The translations under genes were made by a program, and so were the position numbers. Below are positions 4,271 to 59,500 of a DNA stretch of 64,000 nt, piece by piece. The DNA comes from Gracilaria domingensis (Eukaryota > Rhodophyta > Florideophyceae > Gracilariales > Gracilariaceae), in NCBI GenBank assembly GCA_022539475.1, contig VCMS01000280.1, forward strand, positions 1 to 64,000, written 5' to 3'. The notes under the pieces are model-generated. The model was not told where the DNA came from, did no database searches, and was given only the letters and a program-made list of their open reading frames with translations. The number at the start of each line of letters is the position of its first letter. Within the stretch, counting starts at the first letter, position 1.

Positions 4271-4957
4271 TTCCGCCTGCGGGGCGGGATCCGTTTGGTC
4301 CTGCTCCGTGACGAGGTGTACCTGATGAGGTGTGGCTGCATTGGGTCGCGCATTTGCGTGTCCCGTGCCTGCGCTCCGTGCCGGGGGCCCAAATATATCC
4401 TGGTGGTTCTGCTGGCGAGCAGTCAGGAGAGCGTTCCTGTTCTGCGGAGCCACACTTGGGCACGCTGTTGCCAAGTGGTGGGGCGACAAACAGAACCAAC
4501 AGAGGAGATTGCCGGTTGTGGGGTCCTTCATCGCGAGCGACGACGCGCGCGATGGAGGACGGCCTCCAGTAGGTACTGTACTCCGTTGCTGCGGGTATGG
4601 TCCTTGTTCACCATATTGCTTGAATGGTACCGCTAGGACCGGGCTGACCGGTACGGATACCTGTGATGGTGGAGCTGAGGTTTGTCTCGAGGGTGGCTCG
4701 CTGGATAGCCAGCTGGACCAAGAGGTATTACCGTGCGATCGAGTTGTCGGTTGTGCATGCACCAAGTGGACTGGGTGACCCTGGGAGGCGTATTGTGTGG
4801 ACGCCTCCCCCGTAGTGGTCTCCTCTTCCTCTACGTCAAACACTGACCGCCTGGTCTTTCCTTTCTCCTTCGATGGTTTGCCGAGTGGTGCGGAGTCTTT
4901 CCTGGCCCCTGACCGAACGGTGTCGCCTAGTCCCTGTGCATGGCGGGCTAGTGCGTT
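4250..4957 (-). pseudogene. Nucleocapsid/zinc-knuckle segment after an in-frame stop
   Basis: This segment is in the same frame as Gag, directly after its TAA. It is Pro/Ser-rich and carries one CCHC zinc knuckle (CWFCLSPHHLATAC, spacing C-x2-C-x4-H-x4-C), the RNA-binding motif expected at the Gag C terminus. The frame ends at 4250 and the protease continues in another frame. Either the TAA is a mutation that cut the knuckle from Gag, or it is suppressed by readthrough as in some retroelements. The sequence alone cannot separate these. The first internal ATG is at 4843. Confidence 0.65.
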
Positions 4958-9955: not shown

Positions 9956-11128
9956 ATGGTCTACTACTGTACACATAAGAAGCGTGGGTGCCCCTTCGTT
10001 ACTCGCCGAGGAGTCTTATCTCTTCAACAGCATGTCAACCATTGCCCGTTTCGTCTGAAAGCAGCGCTGGAAGACGACAATAGGCTGCCCATTCGGAGAA
10101 GCAAGCGTCTCAAGCTTTCCGCGCCCGCGCCCGCATCTTCCGAAACGGTCACTGCCCCTTGTCGCCTTCCCGAGCCTCCGGTGTCCGAGGACATCGTCGA
10201 CCCCACTCCGTGCGCCCCTCCCATTCCGGACACTTTGCATTGTGTTTCTCCTTCCCCGGGTCCCGCGTCATTAGAGCGAGAACACGGAAGCAGTTCCCGC
10301 CCAGTGCCTTCTGAGGAGGCCCTCGGTGATTTGCATATGGATTATCTCACGGTTTGTCTGGCTTCAGTAGCTTCCAACCTTGGTCATCGTGAGGCAGACG
10401 AGCTAATTGGGCTACTTCGGGACCCGCGATTCTCGCAAAAGCGATTCAACGAGACCATAACAAGTTCCAAGCGCTGTACAGAACTGAAGAAGGCCATTTT
10501 CGAACGATACGCTTCAAAGGACGGTTTCAATTGAAGAACTGTCTCGCCAGAAGGATGTAAGTTCAGCGCCACCCTCTACACGAGAGATCCCGTTCAGACA
10601 CTTGTGAAACAGCTCCAGTTGGCTAACAACGAAAAAACATTCTTCCACCCTATACCTCAGACCCACTCCACGAAAATATCTCACCCCATGTCCGGCTCTA
10701 TCGCAAGAGACGCCACCTCAAAACTTAAGGAAATGGTTATGGGCTCGTTGGATAGTAGAATAGTGTGGTACTCCCAAGAAATAAGTTACAGTGAATCTTT
10801 CGTAGGTCTTCTGCAGGTATACACCGATAAGTCTTCAACAACTCTAAAGCAAACATCGGTTACCGCCTATCCTCTTCACCTCATATTTCTCAACTTCTCG
10901 GACGAGCTTCGCCGTGAGTGCATCCGTGATGACCTCACAGTAGTGGCATACTTCCCTACCACACTGATCGAGGTTTCCGCATCTGAAGCAGACGCAATGC
11001 CATTCGTTTCTAGCAAGTCTCTACGCGAGTCCAGGATGCAAATCCTTCAAGAATCTCTTCGTCAAGTCCTGATGCCAATTCTAAATCTCACGCAGAAAGT
11101 TTTCAGTTCATCGGCGAAGACCAACTAA
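9956..11128 (+). pseudogene. Plavaka-like (CACTA-superfamily) transposase, broken
   Basis: The start chosen is ATG 9956, because the protein from there opens with a Cys/His cluster (YYCTHKKRGCPF then HVNHCPF), like the N-terminal zinc finger of Plavaka-type transposases. A Pro/Ser-rich linker follows. After an in-frame TGA at 10532-10534 the same frame continues with LYTRDPVQTLVKQL. Later comes VYTDKSSTTLKQTSVTAYP and LTVVAYFPT, matching the family signature of a dispensable-looking DKT..TAYPVY and VAYLPT order. The TGA sits where Trp would fit, so it is probably a nonsense mutation. The frame ends at 11128, and the catalytic part is missing or decayed. Family assignment is from remembered motif order and needs a profile search. 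Confidence 0.65.
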
Positions 11129-13335: not shown

Positions 13336-13409
13336 TGCCCGCGGGCGGGGGGGTCCGTTCGTGTTAGGGTAGCTACCCTAACACGAACGGACCCCCCCGC
13401 CCGCGGGCA
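13336..13409. repeat. Perfect 74-bp palindrome (37-bp arms, no loop)
   Basis: Each half reads TGCCCGCGGGC, seven G, TCCGTTCGTGTTAGGGTAG, and the second half is its exact reverse complement, with the dyad between 13372 and 13373. The outer CCCGCGGG is itself palindromic. Confidence 0.95.
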
Positions 13410-13445
13410 CGTTTTGGCCGATTTTTTCAAAAATGTGCGATTTCA

Positions 13446-13519
13446 TGCCCGCGGGCGGGGGGGTCCGGTCGTGTTAGGGTACCTACCCTAACACGACCGA
13501 CCCCCCCCGCCCGCGGGCT
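13446..13519. repeat. Palindrome 3 of the TTAGGG-centred array
   Basis: A near-perfect palindrome placed 110 bp after the previous one, with centre TTAGGGTACCTACCCTAA and the same CCCGCGGGC outer arms. The spacer between copies 2 and 3 is nearly the same as between 1 and 2 (TTTTGGCCG, a T run, AAAATGTGC), so the unit is a tandem repeat of about 110 bp. Confidence 0.9.
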
Positions 13520-34118: not shown

Positions 34119-34274
34119 TGTGGGGAAGAAAAGAGGGGTGAAGGAAAAGTGAGCGGTGCATGCGCTGCGCCGCTCATTTTTTTTTTTGAAGAATACGCCG
34201 ACACGCGCAGGGCGCACAACTTCTGTAAGCGGGCCAGTAAAATTTCGAGGAGCGGCGCAATAATGTGCGACGCA

Positions 34275-34609
34275 TCATTGCGGCGCCCCTGGCATACGAA
34301 TATTATACCGCGAATTACGCCGCGCGTATACAGCGTCGGCGCCTGGCTGATAAGGTCCATAAGGCGGCGCCGGTGCGCGTAGACGTCGAAATTCCCGGTA
34401 GAAACCTCTCGGAGAAACTGCTCCAATTCTCCGAGAAGCGCTTCCGAAAACCCAAACCCCACGACTTCCTGGGGCAGGGTGTGTTCGGCATCCTGGACAG
34501 TGGGGGCGGCGGCCGGTGCCGGAACCGCCTCCACGTCCACGACAGGGCCGAGCCCAGATAAGGACTCGTTGGCTGGCGATGGGACCGGGCTGGTAACGTG
34601 ATCCTTCAT
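34275..34609 (-). CDS. Antisense ORF in U3 of the 5' LTR
   Basis: ATG 34609-34607 opens a frame that runs through U3 and, in this copy, out of the LTR to 33875 (244 codons). The 130 residues shared with the other LTR comprise a Pro/Ala-rich first third and a helix-forming part (FGFSEALLGELEQFLREVST, LMDLISQAPTLYTRGVIRGI, IIAPLLEILLARLQK). No family is recognised. A gene on the antisense strand of U3 would need its own promoter. Overlapping frames on the other strand are also open here, so GC-rich composition could explain it. Confidence 0.35.
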
Positions 34610-34711
34610 GACGAAATGTAGTTGATAGGTTGACGAACGATAGAGATAGGAGCATAAGACGCACGAGACTCCTTCTTATAGTCTAGATCATAGGTTAGTG
34701 TGCATCTGAAT

Positions 34712-34736
34712 TTGCCATGACCGCAGGTCATGGCAA
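34712..34736. promoter_or_regulatory. Perfect palindrome in U3
   Basis: TTGCCATGACC, GCA, GGTCATGGCAA. Further half-sites (TTGCCATGATGGCAGGTCAT, TTGCCAGCATGGCGGTATGA) follow within 70 bp. It sits about 260 bp upstream of the TATA box, so it is a plausible regulator-binding cluster. Confidence 0.6.
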
Positions 34737-34981
34737 GTGTAATTGCCATGATGGCAGGTCATGGCAGTGTCATTTGCCAGCATGGCGGTATGACACCTTG
34801 TCATAGGTACACGTGCATTCCACGACGAAGGCTGCGTGGCGTAGGCGCCCCCTGCGGTGGCAAATGCGCCAAACATATCTACCGTCTACACCTCTCATTG
34901 GGTAGGGCGGTAGATACAACGCCGCCATTGGCCAAGCCCACCGTACCGCCGATTCTCGCCTGGAATCGACGGTGCGGTTGT

Positions 34982-34990
34982 GCATAAAAG
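34982..34990 (+). promoter_or_regulatory. LTR TATA box
   Basis: GCATAAAAG is followed by a GC-rich start region and a long pyrimidine-rich leader. It is present in both LTRs (43491-43499 in the right copy). Confidence 0.65.
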
Positions 34991-35617
34991 TGCCGGAGCA
35001 GTCGCCTCCGACTCAACTCCGGCCAGACCACTTCCCTTCGACGACCTTCCCCCCTACCCCACCACAACCTTCCAATCTCTCTCCTTTTCCCTTTGTCGTC
35101 CTCAACCTTTCCTCATCCCCTACTTCTCTCTCTACTTCTCCCCTTGGCGGCCTGGTCTCACCGCCCTCCCTCGCTCACTGCCACTCACACTGACCCTCTG
35201 TCTGGGCTCGCCCTGTGTGAGTAGGCAAAGCGTCTGCACCACCCTTCCATTGGGTTAGCCTTGTGCAGGCGTGACTCTGCCTTTCATTATCCGCTTTGTT
35301 TGGCCTTTCTTGTCTCTTTTGTTCCCTTCGTTGGTTTCTTTCGCTGTTGTTGTTCCATCTGCCACTCTGTCTTGCCCGAACTACCGTTGTTGTTGTCATC
35401 TTCGTTTGTTCCCCGTTTCTTGCTGTTTGGCGGCCTTCTGCTGCCTGCATCCGTTCTATTGCTTCCCGTTTCGGCCTTGGCCCCTGGTTTTGCTGGTTCT
35501 TTCGCGTTGCGATTCTGTTCCTCACATAGTGTTGCTTTGCACCTGTTGTTGCTAGACGCACTGTGTGATACAGCGTAAGGTTGTCCTTAACCTACGGCCC
35601 TGAGGCAATCGTTCAAG

Positions 35618-36118
35618 AGTAAGTTGCCTACAGCTACTCTTTTGGCATTTTGTGTGACTACTAACGTTTCGTTTGTTTCACATCAAGTGCCAAGGTCTAT
35701 TGTTTCATCCAGCGAGTATTCGTCCGTGGTCGATCCGGACGAGCGTATAGAAGAAGTCCCCGATCCCGTTCCTCAGATAAAGAAGTCGGCTGTTCAGCCT
35801 CTTGACGGGCCACGCGAGCGCCACATCTTTCGTGTAGCCCATCAGAAGGAGAAGCGCCGTCGTAACCCTCCGCCGCGTAAGCGAATCTTCAAACGCTGTC
35901 GTGTCTGTGACATCAAGGTCCAGAGCCAGCGTCAGCTTGAAGTCCATCAAGCCGGCCGTCGCCATCGCAGAGCTTTGCGCCGTGCAAACTACACCGAGCT
36001 GGACATTCACTGCAGGGCTTGCGACATCCGGTTCTCTGAAGCCCACGATCTGCGCGTCCACTACAGGAGCCGCCGTCATCGTGCGACACTTAGAAAGAAG
36101 AACAATACTATCTTTTAG
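35618..36118 (+). CDS. LTR-encoded two-finger C2H2 (jaz/U1-like) protein; AUG made by splicing
   Basis: Open coding sequence from 35591 to TAG 36116-36118 has no ATG in frame. A strong intron is visible: donor GTAAGT at 35619, branch site TACTAAC at 35659-35665, and the first AG after it at 35686-35687 (69 nt). Joining A35618 to TG35688 creates ATG with A at -3. The predicted protein is 143 residues. Residues 1-68 are acidic then basic, with a KRRRNPPPRKR stretch. Finger 1 has C71, C74, H87, H93 and finger 2 has C109, C112, H125, H131. Both are C-x2-C-x12-H-x5-H, the spacing of jaz/U1C-like fingers that often bind double-stranded RNA. It lies upstream of gag in the element RNA. An RNA-binding role is inference. 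Confidence 0.7.
   Translation, partial: SKLPTATLLAFCVTTNVSFVSHQVPRSIVSSSEYSSVVDPDERIEEVPDPVPQIKKSAVQPLDGPRERHIFRVAHQKEKRRRNPPPRKRIFKRCRVCDIKVQSQRQLEVHQAGRRHRRALRRANYTELDIHCRACDIRFSEAHDLRVHYRSRRHRATLRKKNNTIF
35619..35687 (+). other. Predicted 69-nt intron
   Basis: The GTAAGT donor, consensus TACTAAC branch, pyrimidine-rich stretch and first downstream AG are all present. It is identical in the 3' LTR at 44128-44196. Confidence 0.7.
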
Positions 36119-36403
36119 AGCACAGGTCTCTCCTTTCATTGTCCAGTTGCGACACATTTCTATTCATATCTCATTACATATATTATCCTTGTTTGTTCTT
36201 CTTTATCTTCTTGTCTATCGTTTGGTATCCCTCTTCTGTTCTTGTGTTCGTGCCTTGTTGTTTGGCTTCTGCCGCACTCTATCTACGTAAGCTTATATTT
36301 GGCTAGTGCTTCTTCGTCCGATTGGACTGGTACTCTACGAGAGCAAACTTTATTTTTATCGTTTTTGCCCCCTTTGGCTGCAACCGCCGACGCCATCACC
36401 AAA

Positions 36404-39400
36404 ATGGCGTTTTCATGGTACTCTCGCCGAGGTGCCCTTGGCCCCGATACTATGGACACCTCGACGCCTCTCTTCGACGGATACAATTCCGATGTCCGTC
36501 GATTTCTCTTTTTCTTCGAGAACGTTGCCACCAGTGGAAAGCCTGATGAGGAGCGTTCCTCCGAAATCTTGGGCTTCCTAAGTGGTGACGCCTTCGATCA
36601 TTATTATAATAATTTCTCTGTAGATGGCGTGCTCACCCCGAACGCGGCCAACTACATATCAGTTAAGAAGTCCCTGCTCGATCGCTTTGGCGCTGCTGAG
36701 GAACCCGAGGAGTATATCCGAGAAGCGGTGACTGCCCGTTTGGACTACGGTGATCTCCTTGGTTCCCTCCAGCGCATGGACGCTTGCTTCGACAAGGCCG
36801 AGTTCAACGCGAAGGCCAAGTTCGGCCTTCTCCGTAAAGCGGTTATGGAGTACGCAGACCTAGCTCAGTTTGTGATATTCCGCGGAGCAAGCGACTATAA
36901 GTCGTTGAAAGACCTCATCAAATCCTTTGTGGCCGGCAAGAAGGCCCTCGGAGCAGGCGGTTCACTGGCGTTTATGCCTCCTCCGAAGAAAGTGTTACAA
37001 AGGAGGCCCGTCGACCCTTCTGATAGGGATCCCACTGCAGACAAGGTGGATCAGCTAGCTAGTCAGCTGGCAGAACTCACTCTCTTGATGAAGAAGAAGT
37101 CAGGACCACCTCCGAAGGCTGATGGAGAGCAAGTTTGTGGCTACTGTCAGAAGCCTGGTCATTTTTCTACTCGCTGTCCACAGAATCCGCATCGCGATAC
37201 GCGTTGTGGGGGCTGTGGAAAGATGGGGCATTCCATCGCAACGTGTTGGAAGCGCCATTCGGAAAAGAAGGTCCGTTTCGATGCCGACAATCAGAAAGAA
37301 ATCCCGGAAGTTCCCAGACCCAACCAAGTTTCTGTAGTCACCGAGGATAACCTTCAGGATCGCGAAACTGTAGCGATGGCCAAACGAGCCGCTGATGGCG
37401 CCCCATTGCCAAACCAGGCCCGCCTGGAACATCGGGTTGGTGTCAAGGAGCTTCTGAACCCAGCAAGCGACACCCTATTTCGCTTGATACGCTCAGCCAC
37501 GCGTAATCGATCCAGAAAGCCTAAGAAGGTCTCCACAAAGAAGCTCTCTGGTAAGTCAATGCTCCAGGTGCACGCCGGAAAGTATAACGTAATGGAGGAG
37601 CTCGCGAATGCCCCGACCGGGCTCACATTCGGTCAACTCATTCGCGGGGACGCCGATGCGGCCAAGAAAGATCTGCGTCGAATCATCTCTGGCCGTTCAA
37701 CGACCAGAAAGGTCAATGCGACCCAGGTCGAGCGTGAAAACTCTCGTCTTAAGGTTGTGCCTATTACAGTCTATGGGACCATGACCCAAGCCCTTTTGGA
37801 CTGTGGCGCTGTCCCGAATCTAATGTCAGCAGAACTAGCGGACCATCTGCTACTGACACCGAACCCCACTGAAAGGACGATTAAAGTAGCTGATGGCAAT
37901 GTTGCCCGCATTCGTGGTACTCTAGAGGGCGTTCCTGTAAGGTTCGATGACCTCCGAGTATCCCTCGAGTTTCTTGTTATCGAGAAGCCCCCCTTCGATG
38001 TAATCATCGGGAACCCCACGCTAGAAAAGCTGCATGCCTGTATCGATCTTGGTACACAAGAAGTCACCATGAGTTACAACAAGAAGCACGTCGTTATAGG
38101 ACTCGACTCCGATCGTTCCGGATTAGAAGCATTTGTCCCGTTTTCTGAGACAGATAGCGAAGATTTCACGTCAGACTCTGATGCTATCCCGTCTGACTCT
38201 GAAGATGAGTCGGAGGACTTTGCTAACCTCCCCCTTCCAAAGCAGCGAACCCCTGGTGGCGCCGAAGTGACCTTAGTGGCAGTAATGGAAAGGGATGGGG
38301 ACGCAGGATCCCAGGATGGCGAAGAGGAGAACGATGGTGAGGAAGAACCCGCCAATGTGACAGCGCAGCCCACCCGAGCCGGGCCGTCCGAAGGACCTCA
38401 AGTATCTGACCAAGCCCGTCGACCGATTCAGGCTGAAGATTCCCACGGCCCTAACTTCACCTGGCGTACCATCGGGACTCAGATCCATCTGGATAGTTTG
38501 ACCGCGGAGCGTGGGGAGAACCCCCATGCAAATAATGTGCATATTGCCGGACCCGATGGCCCACAAATTCCTCCAGAGGGAGAAAGGGTGGCAGTCGGAC
38601 CAGCACCGCGTCAGCAATCCCAGCTGATCTCCCAGTATGATGATGACGAGGATCGACGATTCGAAGACGCGGAGGAAGAAGTGCAGGCAGATCCCCCTGT
38701 CGAAGAAAGGTCCGGACCCAATCCCTCCTCCTTCCAGAGCGAGTCTACGGATACCAGCGTACAGCCAGAAGATGTGAATGTCGTGATTCCTACAAGTATT
38801 GCACCCAGAGCTAATAACGCCAGCGAGGACAGTAAAGTCCGGCCTCCTGACGATGGGCCCGTAGGTGAAAGCCCGGCGGAGTTCCCAGACGGTGGTGACG
38901 ATGAGGACGACTCCTCACCGGAGGAAGTAGACCTCATTGGCTCACCACTTTACCGCGACCCTGTCCTTACTATCCCGATCAGAGACGAAGTAGTTCTGCT
39001 TCCTTTAGCCGAAGGCCAGTCAGTTACTGACTTCTTGGACGTACGGGTTCAATTGCGACATCCAGTACCGTCACCCGCGCATACCCCTCATCTAGAAGCA
39101 CAGAACCTACCGCTCAACCGCGTAGGAATGCTAGAGGACGACGACTCCGGCGGTTATGTCATAGCATTTGAAGAAGAACTACCTCCGGACGAAATCGACG
39201 CCCAGACCCCGGGAGAAGATGAACATTCACAAGACCCAAGCCGCGACGAGGAAGTTGTGGCCGAGCCTACGTGCCCAGCGCAAGACATTGAGTATTCTCT
39301 GCAAGACCCAATTGCGCAAGATTCACTCGGTCGCACGCTCGACCGACGCGATTACCCCCCCGACACCAACAAGGAGGAGGTGATTCTAGAACGGATCTCT

Positions 39401-42400
39401 CATCTCCCAAGGGATAGACGGGTGGACCTCCTCGCTGTTCTGGATAACTTGAATGTCACAGCATGGTCCTTGTATGATCTTAGGCCCTCTGACGTGCCGG
39501 TAACGCACAGGTTTGACCTCAGTGTCCGGACCCCAATTCATTCGAAGGTCCGAAGGCTACCCCCAAAGCATGACGACGTTGTTCGGAAAGAGGTTGACAA
39601 AATGTTGTCCGCCGGGATCATCAAGCCGTCCACCTCTCCTTGGTCCTTCCCAGTTGTCATCGCACATAAGAAGGATGGAAAGCCCCGGTTCTGTGTCGAC
39701 TATCGCGGTCTGAACCAGGTCATGACGCCCGATAGGTGGCCCCTACCAAACATGGAACAGATCTTTGACGATTTGGGCGGTTGTTCGTTGTTCACGACCC
39801 TAGACCTTTTCTCCGGATACTGGCAGGTGCGTATGGCCCCTGACTGCAAAGAAATGACGACTTTTGTTTGTCGTCAGGGAACCTTCCAGTTTGAAGTCAT
39901 GCCTTTTGGTCTCATGAATGCCCCAGCCACGTTTCAAAGAATGATGGACGCGGTCCTTCATGGGGTGGAGTTTGCTCGCGTCTATATAGACGACGTTGTC
40001 ATCTTCTCGAGAAGCCTGGAAGAACATTTGTACCACCTAACCAGGGTTCTCGAGATCCTTGCAAGTCATGGTCTGAAGATAAAAATATCCAAATGTGATT
40101 TTGCACAGCCCCGTATCAAACTGCTTGGTCACGTCATCGACAAGGAAGGCACTTCGGTTGATCAAGACAAGATCGACGTCATCCAAAAGGCCCCCGAACC
40201 CTCGACGGTAACCGAGCTCCGAAGTTTTCTCGGTCTAGCCAGTTATTATCGAAGGTTCATAAAGGATTTCGCAGATACGTCAGCAGTATTGCATGCTGCC
40301 ACTACAGGGAAGGGAAAGCTGAATTTCACCAATGAGATGAAGACAGCGTTTAATGATCTAAAGGGAAAGTTAGTATCCCCGCCGGTCTTAGCATTTCCCG
40401 ACTTTGAGAAGCCTTTTAGAGTTGAAACCGATGCTTCTTCAGTCGCGCTTGGTGCCGTTCTGTCACAAAAGAAAGAGGACGGAATGTATCACCCAATTCA
40501 ATTTGCCAGTCGCACGCTTAATGCCGCCGAGCGAAAGTATTCTACTTGCGAAAAGGAGGCCCTAGCCGTGGTCTTTGCCTTGAAGAAGTTTCGCATGTAT
40601 CTACTCGGAGGTCTCCCCTTTGAGCTTGTTACGGACCACCAAGCTCTGAAGTATGCATTCCAAAAGAAGGACATTCACGGGCGCCTAGCCCGATGGATGG
40701 ACCTGCTAGCGGAATACGAGTTCGTTATAGTCTATAGATCTGGCGACAAGAATCGGGCTGCCGACTATCTCTCTCGCTTTGCCGTTGGGGATCCGCCGGA
40801 GCCGGATGATGACGTGTCTGTTGTACTGAATGCGACGGACGAAGTCTATGACTTGGAGCCCTTCTGCGCGCACATCAAGTTGTACCTTGCCGCTTTTTCT
40901 TTTCCTGAAGGAGACCCTAAGATTCGCGCTTTGATTAAGAGGAATGCGAAGAAGTTCTTCCTATGGGAAGGTCTCCTCTATCGCCGTACCAAGAAAGGAT
41001 TAAGAGTGGTACCCTCTGTAAGCAAGCGCCGTGGCATCCTCTCATCCTTTCATGATGACATAGGACATTGGGACTTGGAGGCTACTAAGGATCTGGTCCA
41101 GTTCCGATTCTGGTGGCCTGGAATGTACCCCGACATCGTTTCATATGTTCGCAGTTGTGATGGGTGTCAGTTCACAACACCCCTGCTTAAGTACCGGCCA
41201 GGACAACGAGCCCCATTGACTGGTCTATTTCATACATTCTCTGTGGACTTCGCCGGTTCTCTTCCGTCTACCAGGAATGGCAACCGTTTTGCCCTGATTG
41301 GTGTAGAACACATAACAGGATGGCCTATTGCCGCGGCCTACGGTAATCAGACCTCTACCACCGTCATTCACTTTGTTCGATCTCAGATCGTTTCCCCGTT
41401 TGGTCCCCCGCTGACAATCGTGTCCGACAACTTCAGTTCCTTCAAAGCCAAGGCAGTCGAAGCATACATGGAAAGTAAGAAGATATCCCTCAAGCCCACC
41501 ATGGACTATGCCCCTATGTCTAATGGCCGTGCTGAAAGAATGGTTGGAACCATCAAGAAATCAATTGCCAAGACAATCTTCAATAAGGGACAAGAATGGG
41601 ATGAAGCCCTCGAGCAAATACTTCACGGATACAGGAGGCGCCGGCTGGGTGGCGGGTTCTCTCCTTTTGAGCTCATGTATGGCACAGTCCCACGGATGAG
41701 CTCAGACGACCTACCCCCGCTCATCGTAGATCCAACCCCCACTAATCGTCATCATGAACTACTTGCAAATTCCGCAGGCAGAGCTTCCAGAGTTCTATCT
41801 CAACCCAATCGACAAGACGACCCCAAGTCCGGGCACCGGTTCAACGTCGGTGATGAGGTCTTGGTGATACATGGGAAGGCTCTGAATCCCAACGTGAAAT
41901 GGCCTGCCTTTCAGTCAAAATTCTACGGACCCTGTAAGGTGGTTAAGGCCAGGCACCCCCGATATGTCCTAGTGTCCTCTCATAATCGCTGCACTAGAGA
42001 AGGGGTCCACGCCCGCCGGCTCAAGCGGTATCATCGCCGACCAGTTCATCTGCAGGACGAGGTGGTAGCCACTATTACGGAAGGCGAAGACACCCCTGTG
42101 CCATATCCCACTCAGATCACTGTAATGCCACTCCGCGTTGACTACAATATCCTCACTGCACCCCACCTCTCGTGTCACTTTATCATTGGAGGGAAGAGCA
42201 TACATTCATGGCTTAGCCCTTTAAACGTCTCTATCCCAGAGGTGGAAAGGGTTACCTGGACGCTGACGCATGCCTCACTCGCCCTGTTCTCAATCTCGGG
42301 CCCGTTCTTGAGTCGTAGAGGAGGATCTATCTTAAGAGCATTATTTCGAAGTGTGCACCAGAACTACGGAAGTAATATCGCGCCAGAATTCGTGGTATAT

Positions 42401-42580
42401 CTTTACCACCATGCAGTCTCCTTGCATGGGCATCTCCCAGAGTCGCAACTCTACATACAAGAGACTCAGGACCATATGTCGCACTATGCTCGCACAGGAA
42501 TCGCTCGGATACTCAGCTACACCCCCGACCCAGAGAAGCTAGCAGTACCCTTTCTCTTCCACTATACCACCGAGAATTAG
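36404..42580 (+). CDS. gag-pol: Gag-Pol polyprotein (2058 aa) of the young gypsy element
   Basis: ATG 36404 lies in the LTR end. Residues 1-225 are the capsid-like Gag. Zinc knuckles follow at 245-258 (CGYCQKPGHFSTRC) and 268-281 (CGGCGKMGHSIATC). The protease spans about 440-545, with ALLDCGAVPNLMS at 463-475: the catalytic triplet is D466-C-G rather than DTG or DSG. About 565-1010 is acidic and disordered. The RT spans about 1075-1250 (YIDD from 1194) and RNase H starts around 1340 (ETDASS, CEKEALAV, VTDHQAL). Integrase has an HHCC domain near 1550 and D1615, D1675, E1711, an exact D,D35E arrangement, then a GPC/F-type module (FYGPCKV). About 170 C-terminal residues match nothing I know. 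There is no internal stop or frameshift, so gag and pol are made as one product. Confidence 0.95.
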   Translation: MAFSWYSRRGALGPDTMDTSTPLFDGYNSDVRRFLFFFENVATSGKPDEERSSEILGFLSGDAFDHYYNNFSVDGVLTPNAANYISVKKSLLDRFGAAEEPEEYIREAVTARLDYGDLLGSLQRMDACFDKAEFNAKAKFGLLRKAVMEYADLAQFVIFRGASDYKSLKDLIKSFVAGKKALGAGGSLAFMPPPKKVLQRRPVDPSDRDPTADKVDQLASQLAELTLLMKKKSGPPPKADGEQVCGYCQKPGHFSTRCPQNPHRDTRCGGCGKMGHSIATCWKRHSEKKVRFDADNQKEIPEVPRPNQVSVVTEDNLQDRETVAMAKRAADGAPLPNQARLEHRVGVKELLNPASDTLFRLIRSATRNRSRKPKKVSTKKLSGKSMLQVHAGKYNVMEELANAPTGLTFGQLIRGDADAAKKDLRRIISGRSTTRKVNATQVERENSRLKVVPITVYGTMTQALLDCGAVPNLMSAELADHLLLTPNPTERTIKVADGNVARIRGTLEGVPVRFDDLRVSLEFLVIEKPPFDVIIGNPTLEKLHACIDLGTQEVTMSYNKKHVVIGLDSDRSGLEAFVPFSETDSEDFTSDSDAIPSDSEDESEDFANLPLPKQRTPGGAEVTLVAVMERDGDAGSQDGEEENDGEEEPANVTAQPTRAGPSEGPQVSDQARRPIQAEDSHGPNFTWRTIGTQIHLDSLTAERGENPHANNVHIAGPDGPQIPPEGERVAVGPAPRQQSQLISQYDDDEDRRFEDAEEEVQADPPVEERSGPNPSSFQSESTDTSVQPEDVNVVIPTSIAPRANNASEDSKVRPPDDGPVGESPAEFPDGGDDEDDSSPEEVDLIGSPLYRDPVLTIPIRDEVVLLPLAEGQSVTDFLDVRVQLRHPVPSPAHTPHLEAQNLPLNRVGMLEDDDSGGYVIAFEEELPPDEIDAQTPGEDEHSQDPSRDEEVVAEPTCPAQDIEYSLQDPIAQDSLGRTLDRRDYPPDTNKEEVILERISHLPRDRRVDLLAVLDNLNVTAWSLYDLRPSDVPVTHRFDLSVRTPIHSKVRRLPPKHDDVVRKEVDKMLSAGIIKPSTSPWSFPVVIAHKKDGKPRFCVDYRGLNQVMTPDRWPLPNMEQIFDDLGGCSLFTTLDLFSGYWQVRMAPDCKEMTTFVCRQGTFQFEVMPFGLMNAPATFQRMMDAVLHGVEFARVYIDDVVIFSRSLEEHLYHLTRVLEILASHGLKIKISKCDFAQPRIKLLGHVIDKEGTSVDQDKIDVIQKAPEPSTVTELRSFLGLASYYRRFIKDFADTSAVLHAATTGKGKLNFTNEMKTAFNDLKGKLVSPPVLAFPDFEKPFRVETDASSVALGAVLSQKKEDGMYHPIQFASRTLNAAERKYSTCEKEALAVVFALKKFRMYLLGGLPFELVTDHQALKYAFQKKDIHGRLARWMDLLAEYEFVIVYRSGDKNRAADYLSRFAVGDPPEPDDDVSVVLNATDEVYDLEPFCAHIKLYLAAFSFPEGDPKIRALIKRNAKKFFLWEGLLYRRTKKGLRVVPSVSKRRGILSSFHDDIGHWDLEATKDLVQFRFWWPGMYPDIVSYVRSCDGCQFTTPLLKYRPGQRAPLTGLFHTFSVDFAGSLPSTRNGNRFALIGVEHITGWPIAAAYGNQTSTTVIHFVRSQIVSPFGPPLTIVSDNFSSFKAKAVEAYMESKKISLKPTMDYAPMSNGRAERMVGTIKKSIAKTIFNKGQEWDEALEQILHGYRRRRLGGGFSPFELMYGTVPRMSSDDLPPLIVDPTPTNRHHELLANSAGRASRVLSQPNRQDDPKSGHRFNVGDEVLVIHGKALNPNVKWPAFQSKFYGPCKVVKARHPRYVLVSSHNRCTREGVHARRLKRYHRRPVHLQDEVVATITEGEDTPVPYPTQITVMPLRVDYNILTAPHLSCHFIIGGKSIHSWLSPLNVSIPEVERVTWTLTHASLALFSISGPFLSRRGGSILRALFRSVHQNYGSNIAPEFVVYLYHHAVSLHGHLPESQLYIQETQDHMSHYARTGIARILSYTPDPEKLAVPFLFHYTTEN
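36416..36432 (+). other. Candidate primer-binding site
   Basis: TGGTACTCTCGCCGAGG follows the LTR CA with no gap. It would pair with a tRNA ending CCTCGGCGAGAGTACCA, which fits a T-stem plus a 7-bp acceptor stem. I cannot name the tRNA. Confidence 0.5.
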
Positions 42581-42725
42581 CTCAGTACTTTCGACGCCCG
42601 GTGTAGCGTCGTTTGAGCTTGCGGGTGTGTGGGGAAGAAAAGAGGGGTGAAGGAAAAGTGAGCGGTGCATGCGCTGCGCCGCTCATTCTTTTTTTTGAAG
42701 AGTACGCCGACACGCGCAGGGCGCA

Positions 42726-43118
42726 CTACTTCTGTAAGCGGGCCAGTAAAATTTCGAGGAGCGGCGCAATAATGTGCGACGCATCATTGCGGCGCCCCTG
42801 GCATACGAATATTATACCGCGAATTACGCCGCGCGTATACAGCGTCGGCGCCTGGCTGATAAGGTCCATAAGGCGGCGCCGGTGCGCGTAGACGTCGAAA
42901 TTCCCGGTAGAAACCTCTCGGAGAAACTGCTCCAATTCTCCGAGAAGCGCTTCCGAAAACCCAAACCCCACGACTTCCTGGGGCAGGGTGTGTTCGGCAT
43001 CCTGGACAGTGGGGGCGGCGGCCGGTGCCGGAACCGCCTCCACGTCCACGACAGGGCCGAGCCCAGATAAGGACTCGTTGGCTGGCGATGGGACCGGGCT
43101 GGTAACGTGATCCTTCAT
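42726..43118 (-). CDS. Antisense ORF in U3 of the 3' LTR (130 aa)
   Basis: Identical in protein sequence to the shared part of the 5' LTR antisense frame, but stops at 42726 within the LTR. Its function and even its expression are unproven. Confidence 0.35.
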   Translation of the reverse strand: MKDHVTSPVPSPANESLSGLGPVVDVEAVPAPAAAPTVQDAEHTLPQEVVGFGFSEALLGELEQFLREVSTGNFDVYAHRRRLMDLISQAPTLYTRGVIRGIIFVCQGRRNDASHIIAPLLEILLARLQK

Positions 43119-44126
43119 GACGAAATGTAGTTGATAGGTTGACGAACGATAGAGATAGGAGCATAAGACGCACGAGACTCCTTCTTATAGTCTAGATCAT
43201 AGGTTAGTGTGCATCTGAATTTGCCATGACCGCAGGTCATGGCAAGTGTAATTGCCATGATGGCAGGTCATGGCAGTGTCATTTGCCAGCATGGCGGTAT
43301 GACACCTTGTCATAGGTACACGTGCATTCCACGACGAAGGCTGCGTGGCGTAGGCGCCCCCTGCGGTGGCAAATGCGCCAAACATATCTACCGTCTACAC
43401 CTCTCATTGGGTAGGGCGGTAGATACAACGCCGCCATTGGCCAAGCCAACCGTACCGTCGATTCTCGCCTGGAATCGACGGTGCGGTTGTGCATAAAAGG
43501 GCCGGAGCAGTCGCCTCCGACTCAACTCCGGCCAGACCACTTCCCTTCGACGACCTTCCCCCCTACCCCACCACAACCTTCCAACCTCTCTCCTTTTCCC
43601 TTTGTCGTCCTCAACCTTTCCTCATCCCCTACTTCTCTCTCTACTTCTCCCCTTGGCGGCCTGGTCTCACCGCCCTCCCTCGCTCACTGCCACTCACACT
43701 GACCCTCTGTCTGGGCTCGTCCTGTGTGAGTAGGCAAAGCGTCTGCACCACCCTTCCATTGGGTTAGCCTTGTGCAGGCGTGACTCTGCCTTTCATTATC
43801 CGCTTTGTTTGGCCTTTCTTGTCTCTTTTGTTCCCTTCGTTGGTTTCTTTCGCTGTTGTTGTTCCATCTGCCACTCTGTCTTGCCCGAACTACCGTTGTT
43901 GTTGTCATCTTCGTTTGTTCCCCGTTTCTTGCTGTTTGGCGGCCTTCTGCTGCCTGCATCCGTTCTATTGCTTCCCGTTTCGGCCTTGGCCCCTGGTTTT
44001 GCTGGTTCTTTCGCGTTGCGATTCTGTTCCTCACATAATGTTGCTTTGCACCTGTTGTTGCTAGACGCACTGTGTGATACAGCGTAAGGTTGTCCTTAAC
44101 CTACGGCCCTGAGGCAATCGTTCAAG

Positions 44127-44627
44127 AGTAAGTTGCCTACAGCTACTCTTTTGGCATTTTGTGTGACTACTAACGTTTCGTTTGTTTCACATCAAGTGCC
44201 AAGGTCTATTGTTTCATCCAGCGAGTATTCGTCCGTGGTCGATCCGGACGAGCGTATAGAAGAAGTCCCCGATCCCGTTCCTCAGATAAAGAAGTCGGCT
44301 GTTCAGCCTCTTGACGGGCCACGCGAGCGCCACATCTTTCGTGTAGCCCATCAGAAGGAGAAGCGCCGTCGTAACCCTCCGCCGCGTAAGCGAATCTTCA
44401 AACGCTGTCGTGTCTGTGACATCAAGGTCCAGAGCCAGCGTCAGCTTGAAGTCCATCAAGCCGGCCGTCGCCATCGCAGAGCTTTGCGCCGTGCAAACTA
44501 CACCGAGCTGGACATTCACTGCAGGGCTTGCGACATCCGGTTCTCTGAAGCCCACGATCTGCGCGTCCACTACAGGAGCCGCCGTCATCGTGCGACACTT
44601 AGAAAGAAGAACAATACTATCTTTTAG
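44127..44627 (+). CDS. Second copy of the LTR-encoded zinc-finger gene
   Basis: Identical in protein sequence to the 35618-36118 copy, with the same donor, TACTAAC branch and acceptor (A44127 joined to TG44197). Being in the 3' LTR, it could be expressed into flanking DNA and would survive in solo LTRs. Confidence 0.7.
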   Translation, partial: SKLPTATLLAFCVTTNVSFVSHQVPRSIVSSSEYSSVVDPDERIEEVPDPVPQIKKSAVQPLDGPRERHIFRVAHQKEKRRRNPPPRKRIFKRCRVCDIKVQSQRQLEVHQAGRRHRRALRRANYTELDIHCRACDIRFSEAHDLRVHYRSRRHRATLRKKNNTIF

Positions 44628-44924
44628 AGCACAGGTCTCTCCTTTCATTGTCCAGTTGCGACACATTTCTATTCATATCTCATTACATATATTATCCTTG
44701 TTTGTTCTTCTTTATCTTCTTGTCTATCGTTTGGTATCCCTCTTCTGTTCTTGTGTTCGTGCCTTGTTGTTTGGCTTCTGCCGCACTCTATCTACGTAAG
44801 CTTATATTTGGCTAGTGCTTCTTCGTCCGATTGGACTGGTACTCTACGAGAGCAAACTTTATTTTTATCGTTTTTGCCCCCTTTGGCTGTAACCGCCGAC
44901 GCCATCACCAAAATGGCGTTTTCA

Positions 44925-47595: not shown

Positions 47596-48537
47596 TCAGA
47601 CTCTGTGCGGGTTCTGCACCAAATTTTCAATTCTTGACACCATATCCTCCATACTCTGAGCGTTCTTCAGTTTTTCCCCAGCCTGACGCAAGTCCTCTTT
47701 AATGCGTTCAATAATCACGTCCTGGTTTGAGACCCGTGTGGCTTGATCTTTCAATTCCTTCGCTTGCTTTTTAATGGTTTGCTTCGCAATCGAAAGCTGG
47801 ACCTTGAAAGAGTCTCTTTCCTCTACAAGGGACATCAGTACACATTTTTCATTTCTTTGCACGCCTAATTCCGGCAGCAAACTCTCAACAGCGGAAACTG
47901 CCTCATCTTTATCCCTCGTTACACGAGCGAGCTTCTTCTCCAATTTAGTAACTTCTAGCCAAGCTTCCTTGTCTTCTTTCTCGATCTCATCCTGCTCATC
48001 CCACTCCGCGGCATCAATCGGAGCATCAATCGGATGAGAATCAGGCGCGGCATCACCCGGAGCATCAATTGAAGCACCATGCAGAGCATCAGGCGGCGCA
48101 TCAGGCGGCGTGGCAGGTTGCGCGGCAGGTTGCGCGGCAGGCGGCGTGGCAGGCGGAGCATCAGGCGGCGTATTAGGCGGCGTGGCAGGTTGCGCGGCAG
48201 GCGGCGTGGCAGGCGGAGCACCAGGCGGAGCACCAGGCGGAGCACCAGGCGGAGCACCAGTCGGAGCACCAGGCGGCGCATCAGGTGGCGTGGCAGGTTG
48301 CGCATCAGGTTGCGCGGCAGGCGGCGTGGCAGGCGGAGCAACAGGCGGCGCGGCAGGCGCGGCACCAGCTGACGCGTCAACCGCAGCTGAGGCAGGAGGA
48401 GCAAGAGCAGTGACAAGAACGTCCCGGTAGTTAGAGGAAGCCATGACGTTGCGAAGGTGGAAGGTGGTTGCAATACGAGTCAGAGAAAGAAAACTAAGCA
48501 ACAAGCCGGCACCCAGACTTAAGTACCGTGTGCGCAT
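47596..48537 (-). CDS. Ala/Pro-repeat protein with a C-terminal coiled coil (313 aa)
   Basis: ATG 48537-48535 opens a frame with a hydrophobic N-terminal segment (LSLGAGLLLSFLSL) that could be a signal anchor. A second ATG at residue 32 (MASSNYRDV) would lack it. Residues about 65-165 are degenerate pentapeptide repeats of the type PPxAP/PPGAP/PATPP. An acidic segment follows (AAEWDEQDEIEKEDKE), then about 125 residues of coiled coil (VTKLEKKLARVTRDKDEAVS and IKKQAKELKDQATRVSN). No enzymatic domain was recognised. The overall plan suggests a structural or scaffold protein. The repeat region is also a GC-rich minisatellite and may vary in length. Confidence 0.6.
   Translation of the reverse strand: MRTRYLSLGAGLLLSFLSLTRIATTFHLRNVMASSNYRDVLVTALAPPASAAVDASAGAAPAAPPVAPPATPPAAQPDAQPATPPDAPPGAPTGAPPGAPPGAPPGAPPATPPAAQPATPPNTPPDAPPATPPAAQPAAQPATPPDAPPDALHGASIDAPGDAAPDSHPIDAPIDAAEWDEQDEIEKEDKEAWLEVTKLEKKLARVTRDKDEAVSAVESLLPELGVQRNEKCVLMSLVEERDSFKVQLSIAKQTIKKQAKELKDQATRVSNQDVIIERIKEDLRQAGEKLKNAQSMEDMVSRIENLVQNPHRV
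48085..48365. repeat. Coding minisatellite of 15-bp units
   Basis: Units such as GGCGGAGCACCAGGC and GCAGGTTGCGCGGCA alternate. They encode the Pro/Ala repeats of the minus-strand gene. Confidence 0.8.
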
Positions 48538-53982: not shown

Positions 53983-56510
53983 GCTTGTGAGAGCATTAGA
54001 CCTTCCTTTGGGGCGGTATGCATGGGGTTGATGAATTCTCCGAGCAACCAACTGCTCACAGAAAATAGAATACTTTAGTGATGGAGCCACGAATTTCATA
54101 TCAGTAATGGAGCGGGTAAGCTTCCGATGAGCTTCCGACGTGCCTGGATATCGGTGGTAGTCGAATCCATCACATTGTGAGTGCTCAGACTGCCCCCGAG
54201 GGTTGTGCACTGCGTGCATAAACTCCGGCGGACAAGAAACTGCTGACATAAAATAGTATAAAATATTTATAAATCCAGGAGACTTTTGGAGAACAGCTCA
54301 ATGGCAGAAGGCTTCAATGTGCTTCCAGAGCGCTTGCATATCGGCCGTTGCGCTCCGAATCAGTGTGAGAGGGCTCACATCGCTTCTGAGCTTTATGCAC
54401 GCCGTGCACAAACACATTGAGACATCAAACGGCTCAAATAGAATACTCTTACGTAATTGTCAACCCATGACGCTCCGAAATAACCATTGGGGCGGGAGAG
54501 GTTCCAAAGATCTTTGGAGGGGCTTGGATATCGGTCATTGTTGCGATGAACGTTTTGTGAGTACCTCACTTCACTTCCGAGCATAGTGCACGGCGTGCAC
54601 AAGCTATCTGGGACACTACACGGCTCGAAACGAGGAATTCAAAATATTTGTGTAGCCAAGAGGCTTTCTAATCACTAACGCGGCAGAAGGGGCTCCAAAG
54701 ACGTCTGGAAAGAATTGGATATCGCTCAGGCTGGAGGTTAACGCTTGTGAGCATTAGACCTTCCTTTGGGGCGGTATGCATGGGGTTGATGAATTCTCCG
54801 AGCAACCAACTGCTCACAGAAAATAGAATACTTTAGTGATGGAGCCACGAATTTCATATCAGTAATGGAGCGGGTAAGCTTCCGATGAGCTTCCGACGTG
54901 CCTGGATATCGGTGGTAGTCGAATCCATCACATTGTGAGTGCTCAGACTGCCCCCGAGGGTTGTGCACTGCGTGCATAAACTCCGGCGGACAAGAAACTG
55001 CTGACATAAAATAGTATAAAATATTTATAAATCCAGGAGACTTTTGGAGAACAGCTCAATGGCAGAAGGCTTCAATGTGCTTCCAGAGCGCTTGCATATC
55101 GGCCGTTGCGCTCCGAATCAGTGTGAGAGGGCTCACATCGCTTCTGAGCTTTATGCACGCCGTGCACAAACACATTGAGACATCAAACGGCTCAAATAGA
55201 ATACTCTTACGTAATTGTCAACCCATGACGCTCCGAAATAACCATTGGGGCGGGAGAGGTTCCAAAGATCTTTGGAGGGGCTTGGATATCGGTCATTGTT
55301 GCGAAGAACGTTTTGTGAGTACCTCACTTCACTTCCGAGCATAGTGCACGGCGTGCACAAGCTATCTGGGACACTACACGGCTCGAAACGAGGAATTCAA
55401 AATATTTGTGTAGCCAAGAGGCTTTCTAATCACTAACGCGGCAGAAGGGGCTCCAAAGACGTCTGGAAAGAATTGGATATCGCTCAGGCTGGAGGTTAAC
55501 GCTTGTGAGAGCATTAGACCTTCCTTTGGGGCGGTATGCATGGGGTTGATGAATTCTCCGAGCAACCAACTGCTCACAGAAAATAGAATACTTTAGTGAT
55601 GGAGCCACGAATTTCATATCAGTAATGGAGCGGGTAAGCTTCCGATGAGCTTCCGACGTGCCTGGATATCGGTGGTAGTCGAATCCATCACATTGTGAGT
55701 GCTCAGACTGCCCCCGAGGGTTGTGCACTGCGTGCATAAACTCCGGCGGACAAGAAACTGCTGACATAAAATAGTATAAAATATTTATAAATCCAGGAGA
55801 CTTTTGGAGAACAGCTCAATGGCAGAAGGCTTCAATGTGCTTCCAGAGCGCTTGCATATCGGCCGTTGCGCTCCGAATCAGTGTGAGAGGGCTCACATCG
55901 CTTCTGAGCTTTATGCACGCCGTGCACAAACACATTGAGACATCAAACGGCTCAAATAGAATACTCTTACGTAATTGTCAACCCATGACGCTCCGAAATA
56001 ACCATTGGGGCGGGAGAGGTTCCAAAGATCTTTGGAGGGGCTTGGATATCGGTCATTGTTGCGAAGAACGTTTTGTGAGTACCTCACTTCACTTCCGAGC
56101 ATAGTGCACGGCGTGCACAAGCTATCTGGGACACTACACGGCTCGAAACGAGGAATTCAAAATATTTGTGTAGCCAAGAGGCTTTCTAATCACTAACGCG
56201 GCAGAAGGGGCTCCAAAGACGTCTGGAAAGAATTGGATATCGCTCAGGCTGGAGGTTAACGCTTGTGAGAGCATTAGACCTTCCTTTGGGGCGGTATGCA
56301 TGGGGTTGATGAATTCTCCGAGCAACCAACTGCTCACAGAAAATAGAATACTTTAGTGATGGAGCCACGAATTTCATATCAGTAATGGAGCGGGTAAGCT
56401 TCCGATGAGCTTCCGACGTGCCTGGATATCGGTGGTAGTCGAATCCATCACATTGTGAGTGCTCAGACTGCCCCGAGGGTTGTGCAATGCGGTGGACAAT
56501 TAAACTTCCT
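53983..56510. repeat. Satellite with 760-bp higher-order units of four about 190-bp monomers
   Basis: Units start at 53983, 54743, 55501 and 56261 (partial), with lengths 760, 758 and 760. They are almost identical. Inside a unit a GATATC or CATATC landmark recurs at 55476, 55665, 55855, 56045 and 56236, a spacing of 189-191 bp. Each landmark is followed by GTGAG and mostly by a TGCAC..GTGCA dyad. The four monomers differ strongly from each other while the 760-bp units do not. This is the signature of a higher-order repeat. Repeated open frames here are by-products. Confidence 0.93.
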
Positions 56511-59500
56511 CGTCGTGTATTCATAGATAAAGCACTGGGCGACATAATTTATAGTATTTAATCACAATATAGTAAGACATTCCATGTGAGATGGCGTCTT
56601 ATTGTGGAAAGAAGAAAAGTCTCTCTTGATAGGACTGGAGGCATTCTTAGTGTGCTTTGCCAGAGCGTGAACTTGGTTATTCTTGTGCTGCGTCTCGGTG
56701 TTTTTGATCGGCGCGTCACCGGACAATGCGCGCGCTCAGGGGTATGAGAGGACTCTGACATTTCGGCTTCTGAGCTTTATGACGCGTCGCGACAAACACA
56801 TTGGACATCGGTACGCGCTCAAAAAGAGTTAAACTGCTTACGTTAGAAGTATCTCGTCAATATGACCTCCCTAGTGCACGCCTCCGAGTTTTATGTCTTC
56901 ATTGCCGGGCTGCTGCGAAGGAGAGGTTGAAACCTGATCTTGGATAGGTCCTTGTCCGCATCCTCCGCGCTCTAGTTGTTTCGCGCACGGAAACGCCCTT
57001 CTGTAGAAGATACGACTTGTCGTTCGCTGTCACGTTCTCTAGCTTGCGAGTCTATAGATGACAGCCCGGCGGGTCGAACAAGAGACCTAATTCTTGTGGT
57101 ATTCACCTCTACGGCTCTCTCGAACGAGGAGGCTATATTTGAATACTCATGTTGAATGTAGCAGAGGCTTTCGTGAAATCTAATCGCGTGTTCTGCTTCA
57201 GAAGCTGGGGCTGCAAAGCGTCTAGAGATCAGGATTTCTTTTTCCTCCGCGGTCTCAGCGCGTGAGAGGGTTTAACGTGGCTGTAGTGTAGAAGCATAAG
57301 ACGATTACCTCTTGGCAGGGCGCTCGCGGTCATTGCGTGCGTGTGGTGCATGTGATTTTCTGCCAGGAATTGCAACTCATAAACCTCTGTCCAGAATAGA
57401 CTGCCGATCTATCTTTGATGAGTGGTATGGCCAGCGCACGAACCATATTGTGCATATCTTAACCTGGACGGAGGCCGCTAAGCAGCTCTCGGATGAGGCG
57501 TTTCTCTCTGCTGATATGTTTCGTGTATTACAGATCCGTGAGTGTTCTCTCGGCCCGTGCCTATTGCACGACTTGTGAGTAGTGCAGACTGTCCCGCAGA
57601 AGGCGTGAATTGATAGCATAGATTGGAATGCAATAAACTCGGCTCTGCATCTCGAGAAAAAACGTGCTCGCATCAAAAACTCGTGTATAGAAAAATATTT
57701 TATAATAGTTATGAGAGACTTTTTGCGCCTTGGGAGAACAGTATTCACCGTTCTGCAAGTTATTGCAACCGGAAAAGGCTTTAGATCGCACGTAAGATGA
57801 TCTCAAGTCCGGATCGCGCCCTGAATAGCATAATCTGGGGTAGGTCTCGCGAGATGTACGGAATGAAAGTTTTTTGGAGGGGTGTGAAGAGGAGGTGCGT
57901 CAACCCTTCTCGCGGGATATCCTGACAGACTTTATTTGCCGCTTCGTGCACAAACACATTGAGAACTCCAAACGGGCTCAAAATGATACATCTTACGTAT
58001 TGTCAACCTGAGCGCTCCTCGGATTGAGGGACGTCCTCCAGGCAATTGGAAAGGGCAGAGGAGGTTCCAAAGGCGATGTGATGGATGTGCGCGCGAATAA
58101 TGCAAGACACTCAAAATATCGGGGTCCGTGGTAACCGTGAACAGTCTTAAGTCGCAGTACAGACTGTGTCTCAGATAAGCTGGGCCTACTTCTGAGGCAC
58201 TCGTATATCGCTTTGTTGCCACGAAGACGATGAAGTGTAGCATACTGCAAGGGGAAGGTAGGGCAACAAGTTGCCGGTACTCACATAGGGAAGATCTCGT
58301 CATACGCAGCAATCGAAAGACAGAGGAGGAATTCAATGAGAACACAAGAGTAATGTTATGTGTAGGGCCTATGAGAACGACTGCTTTCTGAATTCGGCGA
58401 GAAGAACGCAAGACGGAGGTGACAGGGAGTTGATGAAGGTAGACGATGAAGAGACGGGAAAGAGCGCTCCGATAAGATGTCTGTGATACGAGGAATTGAG
58501 ACTAAATACGTCTCTGAGGAGTCGTAGAGAGTGTAATTTGTTTCTTGGTATACCAACGCTTGTAAAAACGAGAGAGCATTGAGGTGGATCCGTCTCCATA
58601 TATTGGTGCGGGGGTTCGAATGGCCAGTTGCGGCTTGGCTTTCCTTCTTTCTGCGTGCTCGAGGCTAGCAGCGAGACGAAGGTACCCGCATAGGCTCACT
58701 CGAGAAATAGCAACCAAATAGCGTTTTGTAGTATGAAGTAGTGGAGCGAACGATGTCTTGATTTTTCGATTGAATGCGGCGGGCGGGTAAAAGACTGTCG
58801 GCCTCCGATGATGGTGATGCCGACCGAAATGAGTGTTCGCGTGCCTTGAACATGGGTTTCCTCTTCTGGAGCGTAGTGTCGAAATCATTCACATTGTGAT
58901 GTGTTGCCAGAGCTATGCCCCGCAGAAGGGGATTCATAGATGCAATGCGTTCTGTGAGCCCGTAACCGACTCCGAGCGGAACCGCAGATTGCTAGTCGTG
59001 AGAGCATTGATATCACTGAATGGAAGTTTAAAATATTTCTTTAAATACTGAGCAGGGACTTTTAGAGGAAACTTGCCAGAGCAAGTGCAGTAGAGGCGAC
59101 GCGCAAAATGGGCAGTTCAGGCTTCAATGTGCTTCCAGAAGCGCTTGCATAGTTAACTCGCGGTATGCGCTCCGATAGTCAAGTGTGAGAGGGCTCCACA
59201 TCGCTTCTGAGCTTTACTGCACCGCCGTGCTCGCTCACCAAACACAGAATGTAGACTACTACAAGAAAAGTATGCTCACGATGTGCAGAAGATTGAAAGC
59301 TTGCATTTTCCTGTAGTGCGTATGACGGTGCGTAGAGGTTCTCGCAATCTCACCGTGAGAACCGCTCCCCGAAGCCAACTTTTGCCTCATTTTGGGGCGT
59401 GGTGCATGCCATGGTTCAAAGTTTTGGAGGGGCTTGTGGTAGGCTCGGTCATTTGCTCTAGCGCAGAGAACGGCTTGTGAATGCGTAGTGGTAGTACTCG

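Follow-up and report, generated by a model that had tools for sequence, protein, structure and literature searches.

A zinc-finger gene in the LTRs of a Gracilaria domingensis retrotransposon with a start codon predicted to be made by splicing

Results

A split start codon within the LTR

A Ty3/Gypsy-type retrotransposon in the 64,000-nucleotide stretch of DNA that was analysed (hereafter, the window) appears to carry, within each LTR, a real gene for a two-finger protein. Its AUG would exist only in spliced RNA, and splicing would act as the switch between this protein and Gag-Pol; judged from the sequence, this reading is given a probability of about 0.8. The features concerned are listed below.

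34119-44924, + strand: Ty3/Gypsy-type element, delimited by both LTRs and a flanking 5-bp duplication, GAACT
34119..36415, + strand: 5' LTR (TGTGGGG...GTTTTCA), with its copy at an offset of 8509 and GAACT at the flanks
34984..34990, + strand: TATA-like box ATAAAAG, followed by the promoter core GCCGGAGCAGTCGCCTCCGACTCAACTCCGGCC
35015..36403, + strand: ATG-free leader of the predicted genomic RNA, from the putative transcription start site to the Gag AUG (1389 nt, 0 ATG)
35618 and 35688-35689, + strand: split start codon A/TG; of the 69 LTRs aligned, 65 retain it along with GT and AG
35619..35687, + strand: predicted 69-nt intron with GTAAGT (35619-35624), TACTAAC (35659-35665) and AG (35686-35687)
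35688..36118, + strand: zinc-finger ORF, second exon, stop TAG at 36116-36118; assessed by dN/dS and intactness among LTR copies
35897..35965, + strand: finger 1 (CRVC...HQAGRRH), zf-met
36011..36079, + strand: finger 2 (CRAC...HYRSRRH), zf-C2H2_jaz
36404..42580, + strand: Gag-Pol in one frame, with two CCHC knuckles, protease, reverse transcriptase (RT), RNase H and integrase (Pfam; CCHC pattern)
36416..36433, + strand: putative primer binding site (PBS) TGGTACTCTCGCC..., with TGG directly after the LTR, within the Gag frame
42628..44924, + strand: 3' LTR, the entire arrangement a second time (comparison with the 5' LTR)
44127..44627, + strand: 3' LTR copy of the split start, intron (44128-44196) and zinc-finger ORF (identity; signals re-read)

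An earlier note on this DNA had described a zinc-finger frame devoid of ATG; this was borne out, and moreover no ATG occurs in any frame from 35015 to 36403. The intron it proposed, joining A35618 to TG35688 to give an AUG and 143 residues with two fingers, was right to the base in its coordinates, and the AG at 35686-35687 is the first AG past the branch site. The signature GTRRGT-TACTAAC-AG was found twice in the window, once in each LTR on the + strand, with no occurrence on the - strand, while 60 first-order Markov sequences of 64 kb gave a mean of 0.08 hits and none of the A/TG form. When the window's own assembly (78 Mb in 680 contigs, a single species) was searched, the signature plus exon edges occurred at 98 places as against 0 for a reversed control. 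The signature in the LTRs is not a product of chance. As anticipated from the LTR location, the element holds two copies: the stretch 35591-36118 recurs at 44100-44627 in the 3' LTR with 100% identity over 528 bases.

The element and its surroundings

By its sequence, the element is a young Ty3/Gypsy-type LTR retrotransposon. The LTRs end in TG...CA and differ at 10 of 2297 positions. The Gag-Pol frame spans 2058 codons with the domain order of Ty3/Gypsy; the CCHC knuckles of Gag start at residues 245 and 268, and Pfam scores exceeded the cut-off for protease (452-538), RT (1088-1245), RNase H (1333-1438) and the integrase zinc-binding domain (1540-1590). The integrase core (1621-1701) was matched at E 1.1e-5, yet under the curated Pfam cut-off. 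The AUG of Gag at 36404 sits within the final 12 nt of the LTR in the context ACCAAAATGG, an arrangement like that of Ty1 of budding yeast, in which the Gag AUG also lies inside the LTR, 5' of the PBS; we know of no LTR zinc-finger ORF or intron in Ty1. A PBS-like stretch comes after 31 of 70 copied LTRs, and inspection by eye just upstream of 42628 gave no clear purine run. The promoter core is exact or near-exact across the U3-leader alignment of 68 copies, and it had 124 matches in the genome at up to 2 mismatches as against 0 for a reversed control pattern.

Several other features of the window were recorded. Another Gypsy-type element, a broken one, lies at 1280-6517 on the - strand, where Gag-like, RT, RNase H and integrase frames were recognised by eye in the translations. 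A Plavaka transposase fragment, of a group typical of basidiomycetes, scored exactly at the Pfam cut-off at 10604-11128. A palindrome at 13337-13518, with 90-nt arms that are 87% complementary and lie 2 nt apart, overlaps 110-nt direct repeats. A 12-nt minisatellite (48000-48419) lies inside a 313-codon ORF on the - strand (47596-48537), and at 53988-56565 a unit of 758-760 nt is repeated head to tail in four copies, of which three proved near identical across the 300 nt compared. Searches of the 64-kb window for tRNAs and with Rfam gave no hit.

The ORF is under purifying selection

At least 150 matches to the finger protein were scored in the genome; the best 75 were without an internal stop, and 70 of the scored copies were aligned over the leader. 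Since the copies studied were taken from the top of a score-ranked list, they are biased to intact ones. Selection on the ORF across LTRs had been set beforehand as a test, and it proved to be purifying, with dN/dS of 0.06 to 0.09 in the comparisons with many changes. Between the ORFs of the window and L024 types, 35.5 synonymous changes at 98 sites and 9.5 non-synonymous changes at 328 sites were counted (dN/dS 0.06), and the changes fell 4, 6 and 35 by codon position; the ratio was 0.09 for L024 vs L069 and 0.07 for L024 vs L023. Comparison of the window with nine C-type ORFs gave less extreme values (0.17-0.49 on 18-30 changes), some of these changes presumably being decay that followed insertion. 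In a group of 31 near-identical copies, polymorphic ORF sites numbered 5, 6 and 3 by codon position, the pattern that drift after insertion would give. Selection thus seems to fall on lineages that continue to transpose, as would be the case for a gene of the element.

The ORF was gap-free in 16 tabulated copies and intact in 65 of the 69 aligned LTRs. It was also retained in LTRs without a following PBS, which are 3' or solo LTRs, in agreement with the earlier suggestion that solo LTRs would keep it. A complete ORF within the LTR, apparently kept by selection, is what characterises an LTR-borne accessory gene.

Splice signals are nearly constant among copies

The donor, the TACTAAC branch site and the AG each showed one variable column among 70 copies. 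The interior of the intron occurs in two main types that differ at 5 in-frame codons, every change altering the amino acid, and the polymorphisms (6, 3, 3 and 2, 2, 1 by codon position) show no third-position excess, unlike those of the ORF. Four aligned LTRs depart from the A/TG arrangement. Three of them (L058-L060) carry G for A together with a changed branch site and are probably one old LTR that was duplicated, because their downstream flank is common to them; the fourth, L085, has lost the AG. In a set of seven older copies, all of which hold 1-10 ATGs, four lack GT, AG or TG at the junction. The other three (L090, L091 and L093) keep GT, AG and TG despite their ATGs, with altered donor and branch site in L091.

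Intron-less LTR copies were sought by the exon junction, and no exact match was present in the genome (searched with 17 bases allowing 2 mismatches and with 16 bases allowing 1). Eleven near matches in the 17-base search were discarded, eight (L039-L046) being without a hit to the leader and three (C267, C183 and C367) without a finger ORF; the near matches of the 16-base search (C58, C100 and C530) were likewise without a finger ORF. That no intron-less copy was found within these mismatch limits fits non-packaging of spliced RNA and fits equally an RNA that is not spliced.

The leader is free of ATG in most copies

The leader contains 0 ATG as against 12.1 expected from a first-order Markov model, while CAT, the reverse complement of ATG, is not depleted (24 vs 19.4 expected) and U3 holds 13 ATG in 896 nt. 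In 50-nt bins over 68 copies and the window, the ATG values were 13 (34900), 2 (34950), 0 (35000) and 0 (35050), the drop falling around the TATA box. The leader was ATG-free in 50 of 69 copies, namely in 27 of 30 LTRs with a following PBS, 23 of 38 without one, and not in the single unclassified LTR (Fisher P 0.011 for the association with the PBS, computed ignoring age and shared descent). An ATG at 44038 in the 3' LTR of the window is missing from the 5' LTR.

Divergence between leaders was also used as a measure. The leaders of L056 and L069 are separated by 296 substitutions; when these were placed randomly, a mean of 7.4 ATGs resulted and 0.04% of runs gave none; none was observed. Over whole leaders in four comparisons, 4.4-7.4 ATGs were predicted and 0 were seen (P of none 0.0004 to 0.011), and for single segments only, P of none was 0.03-0.33. 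In the old mosaic L086, exon 1 contains 7 ATGs vs 6.8 by chance. The absence of out-of-frame ATGs from the ORF was not significant, as 13% of synonymous permutations and 5.6% of recodings with pol usage also had none. An ATG-free leader is the footprint expected of scanning, since any AUG met before that of Gag would be at the expense of Gag.

Related families have ATG-poor leaders without the gene

The genome held 131 Gag matches: 47 at 94-100% identity, one at 66% and 83 at 51-59%. The last were taken as sister families, and upstream regions were compared for four of them (L100-L103), whose Gag is 56-59% alike to that of the window element. The match at 66% (L104) is an old copy of the finger-gene family with finger remnants. 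L100-L103 share the Gag start context AAAAATGRCGTCCACATGGTAC, and the promoter core aligns in L100 and L101, not in L102 and L103. The L101 leader (670 nt) has 0 ATG vs 5.6 expected and that of L100 (662 nt) has 1 vs 4.9 expected; in L102 and L103, 544 nt (5.2 expected) and 470 nt (1.7 expected) before Gag are ATG-free, stretches which start by definition after the last ATG. All four upstream regions were without TACTAAC and without a finger ORF. Since the sister leaders are ATG-poor without the gene, an ATG-free leader alone is therefore not evidence for the gene. The sequences are most simply read as an older, ATG-poor scanned leader to which this family added the intron and finger gene, so that its length roughly doubled; loss of both in the sister families is the less simple alternative.

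Within the family, the LTR leaders are mosaic, with separate histories of exon 1, the finger ORF and the 3' part. Between the window and L024 types the difference amounts to 1.5% in exon 1 and 10% in the ORF, and between the window and L069 types to 26% in exon 1 and 4% in the ORF. In L056 the ORF is L024-like and the 3' part differs by 29%. These patterns suggest that the leader evolves via exchange of segments, probably by template switching. For three copies (L052, L086 and L088), most of the alignment to the window leader starts only at about 35430-35510. By sequence, L086 and L088 at least carry another, strongly diverged exon-1 type.

The predicted protein belongs to a class that includes dsRNA binders

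The predicted spliced product begins MPRS and comprises 143 residues (17 kDa, calculated pI 11.1), with fingers of the form C-x2-C-x12-H-x5-H at residues 71-93 and 109-131. Two Pfam families scored above cut-off as totals over the protein, zf-met (39.1 bits, cut-off 21.2) and zf-C2H2_jaz (35.6 bits, cut-off 22.6). An NCBIfam search of the protein returned one finger family alone, below cut-off, and a search of IMG/VR for relatives returned two pattern matches, neither of them confirmed. The best PDB match by profile was the dsRNA-binding Xenopus ZFa (1ZU1; E 0.0014, and 0.012 with a single sequence). ZFa (1ZU1) was also the first-ranked fold match of an AlphaFold model (E 0.099, not significant); because this model is weak (mean pLDDT 64), the fold match is taken as a hint only. 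The likeness to ZFa-like dsRNA-binding proteins is weak in both profile and fold, and the sequence supports the protein class only, that is, a basic protein with two fingers of a type that includes dsRNA binders.

Discussion

The earlier note had suggested that the protein is restricted to spliced RNA while unspliced RNA serves Gag-Pol. Selection on the ORF, conservation of the splice signals and of A/TG, and the ATG-free leaders speak in favour of this suggestion. From these data we infer that splicing occurs, that initiation is by scanning, and that the intron and gene were gained in this family. Ribosomes would scan the long ATG-free leader from the putative transcription start. On unspliced RNA, the first AUG encountered would be that of Gag at 36404, giving Gag-Pol; on spliced RNA it would be the junction AUG, with A at -3, giving the finger protein. 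The 143-codon ORF of the spliced RNA would then largely keep ribosomes off Gag, which begins 285 nt past the ORF stop. Such a leader would scarcely tolerate an upstream gene that has an ordinary AUG, and it can accommodate one with a splice-made AUG; the gene would have been gained in a scanned leader with its AUG hidden until splicing. In a spliced full-length RNA the 3' UTR would be very long, and such an RNA may be unstable.

A splice-made AUG does not by itself imply a switch. The protein could come from separate transcripts of 5', 3' or solo LTRs, with the unspliced RNA for Gag-Pol forming another pool, and we regard this as possible though rather doubtful. It would suit the intact ORFs in most LTRs without a following PBS, and BARE of barley is described in PMC3735527 as having distinct pools of spliced translated and packaged RNA. 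Against it stands the freedom of the leader, including the ORF, from ATG, which is relevant only if the same RNA is scanned to Gag; this argument is weakened by the sister leaders, which are ATG-poor without the ORF, and part of the ATG-free leader is probably older than the gene. It is unlikely that the ORF is instead expressed without splicing from a near-cognate start (e.g. CUG, UUG or GUG in 35591-35687), with a longer N-terminus and incidental intron signals. In 70 of 71 aligned rows the frame is indeed open from 35591 through the intron, whose length of 69 nt is divisible by 3, and the lone closed row (L025) has a 1-nt deletion. However, the intron types differ by residue-changing codons with no third-position excess while the signals are near constant, and if a near-cognate codon initiated efficiently, Gag would face its competition on all RNAs.

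Two further explanations concern the stretch as RNA and the stop codon. The leader is the usual place of packaging and dimerisation signals in retroelements, and the conserved stretch might be such a cis-acting element with the ORF as its by-product. The excess of third-position changes between the window and L024 (4, 6 and 35 by codon position), which leaves no conservation of synonymous sites, the gap-free ORF in 16 copies and the two Pfam finger families above cut-off make this very improbable. Read-through of the stop at 36116 into a finger-Gag-Pol fusion would be conceivable in the window, where 36119-36403 is open and both ORFs share a frame; since the L054 and L056 types have spacers of 286 or 274 nt, their frames differ, and on the spacer lengths of these other subtypes the fusion was rejected as having next to no likelihood. 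A splice-controlled choice between the finger protein and Gag-Pol thus remains our preferred reading.

As for function, it is a guess from the sequence that the finger protein binds structured RNA. By analogy with known systems, it might act on the element's own unspliced RNA, the guess that we favour although we would not yet call it probable, and the candidate actions (export, stability, splicing or protection from silencing) are likewise guesses. Alternatively, the protein might suppress RNA silencing or act on host genes. A role as a nucleocapsid substitute was ruled out, since Gag has two CCHC knuckles. On a wider and speculative view, to which we give rather little weight, the element family captured an RNA-binding gene in its own scanned leader with an intron concealing the start codon, the efficiency of splicing sets the ratio of regulator to Gag-Pol, and the regulator feeds back on unspliced RNA; with the whole unit inside the LTR, every solo LTR would on this view remain a source of the regulator and allow the family to sense its copy number.

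The superantigen gene (sag) of MMTV is an accessory ORF inside the LTR and hence present twice per provirus. It resembles the finger gene in its location and differs in protein and function and in belonging to a mouse virus; a splice-made AUG is not, to our knowledge, a feature of sag. The best functional precedent by analogy appears to be CERV of the Caenorhabditis elegans LTR retrotransposon Cer1, an accessory protein from spliced RNA, with Gag-Pol made from unspliced RNA; it is nuclear and required for export of the unspliced genomic RNA, and its mRNA has five exons, joining gag-frame exons to an ORF in the env position (PMC10309623, excerpted text). Both proteins are accessory to Gag-Pol, CERV being spliced and the finger product predicted to be so; unlike for the finger gene, the same text describes neither LTR placement nor a splice-made AUG for CERV (PMC10309623). 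In BARE1 of barley, alternative splicing sorts the coding capacity of LTR-retrotransposon RNA, whereas there, according to the excerpted text, splicing creates a stop after Gag, favouring Gag, with no accessory gene and no start made (PMC3735527). Spliced and unspliced RNAs of yeast GCR1 start at different codons; in contrast to the finger gene, GCR1 is a host gene, and the excerpted account places the unspliced AUG in the intron and the spliced AUG in exon 1, none being created (PMC7826247). A search of the open-licence PMC literature, limited to the wording used, found no LTR zinc-finger gene and no splice-made start codon of a retroelement.

If the preferred reading is true, one RNA leader serves either a small protein or the main proteins of the element. 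If confirmed, it would be a compact way to reconcile an upstream gene with scanning to Gag, two things otherwise in conflict, by means of a start codon that is absent from the genomic RNA and made by splicing. This genome contains related families that have the gene and others that lack it, and they offer a natural experiment on how retroelements divide one RNA between regulation, translation and packaging. Confirmation would also mean that protein genes can reside in LTR fragments, which are commonly regarded as non-coding.
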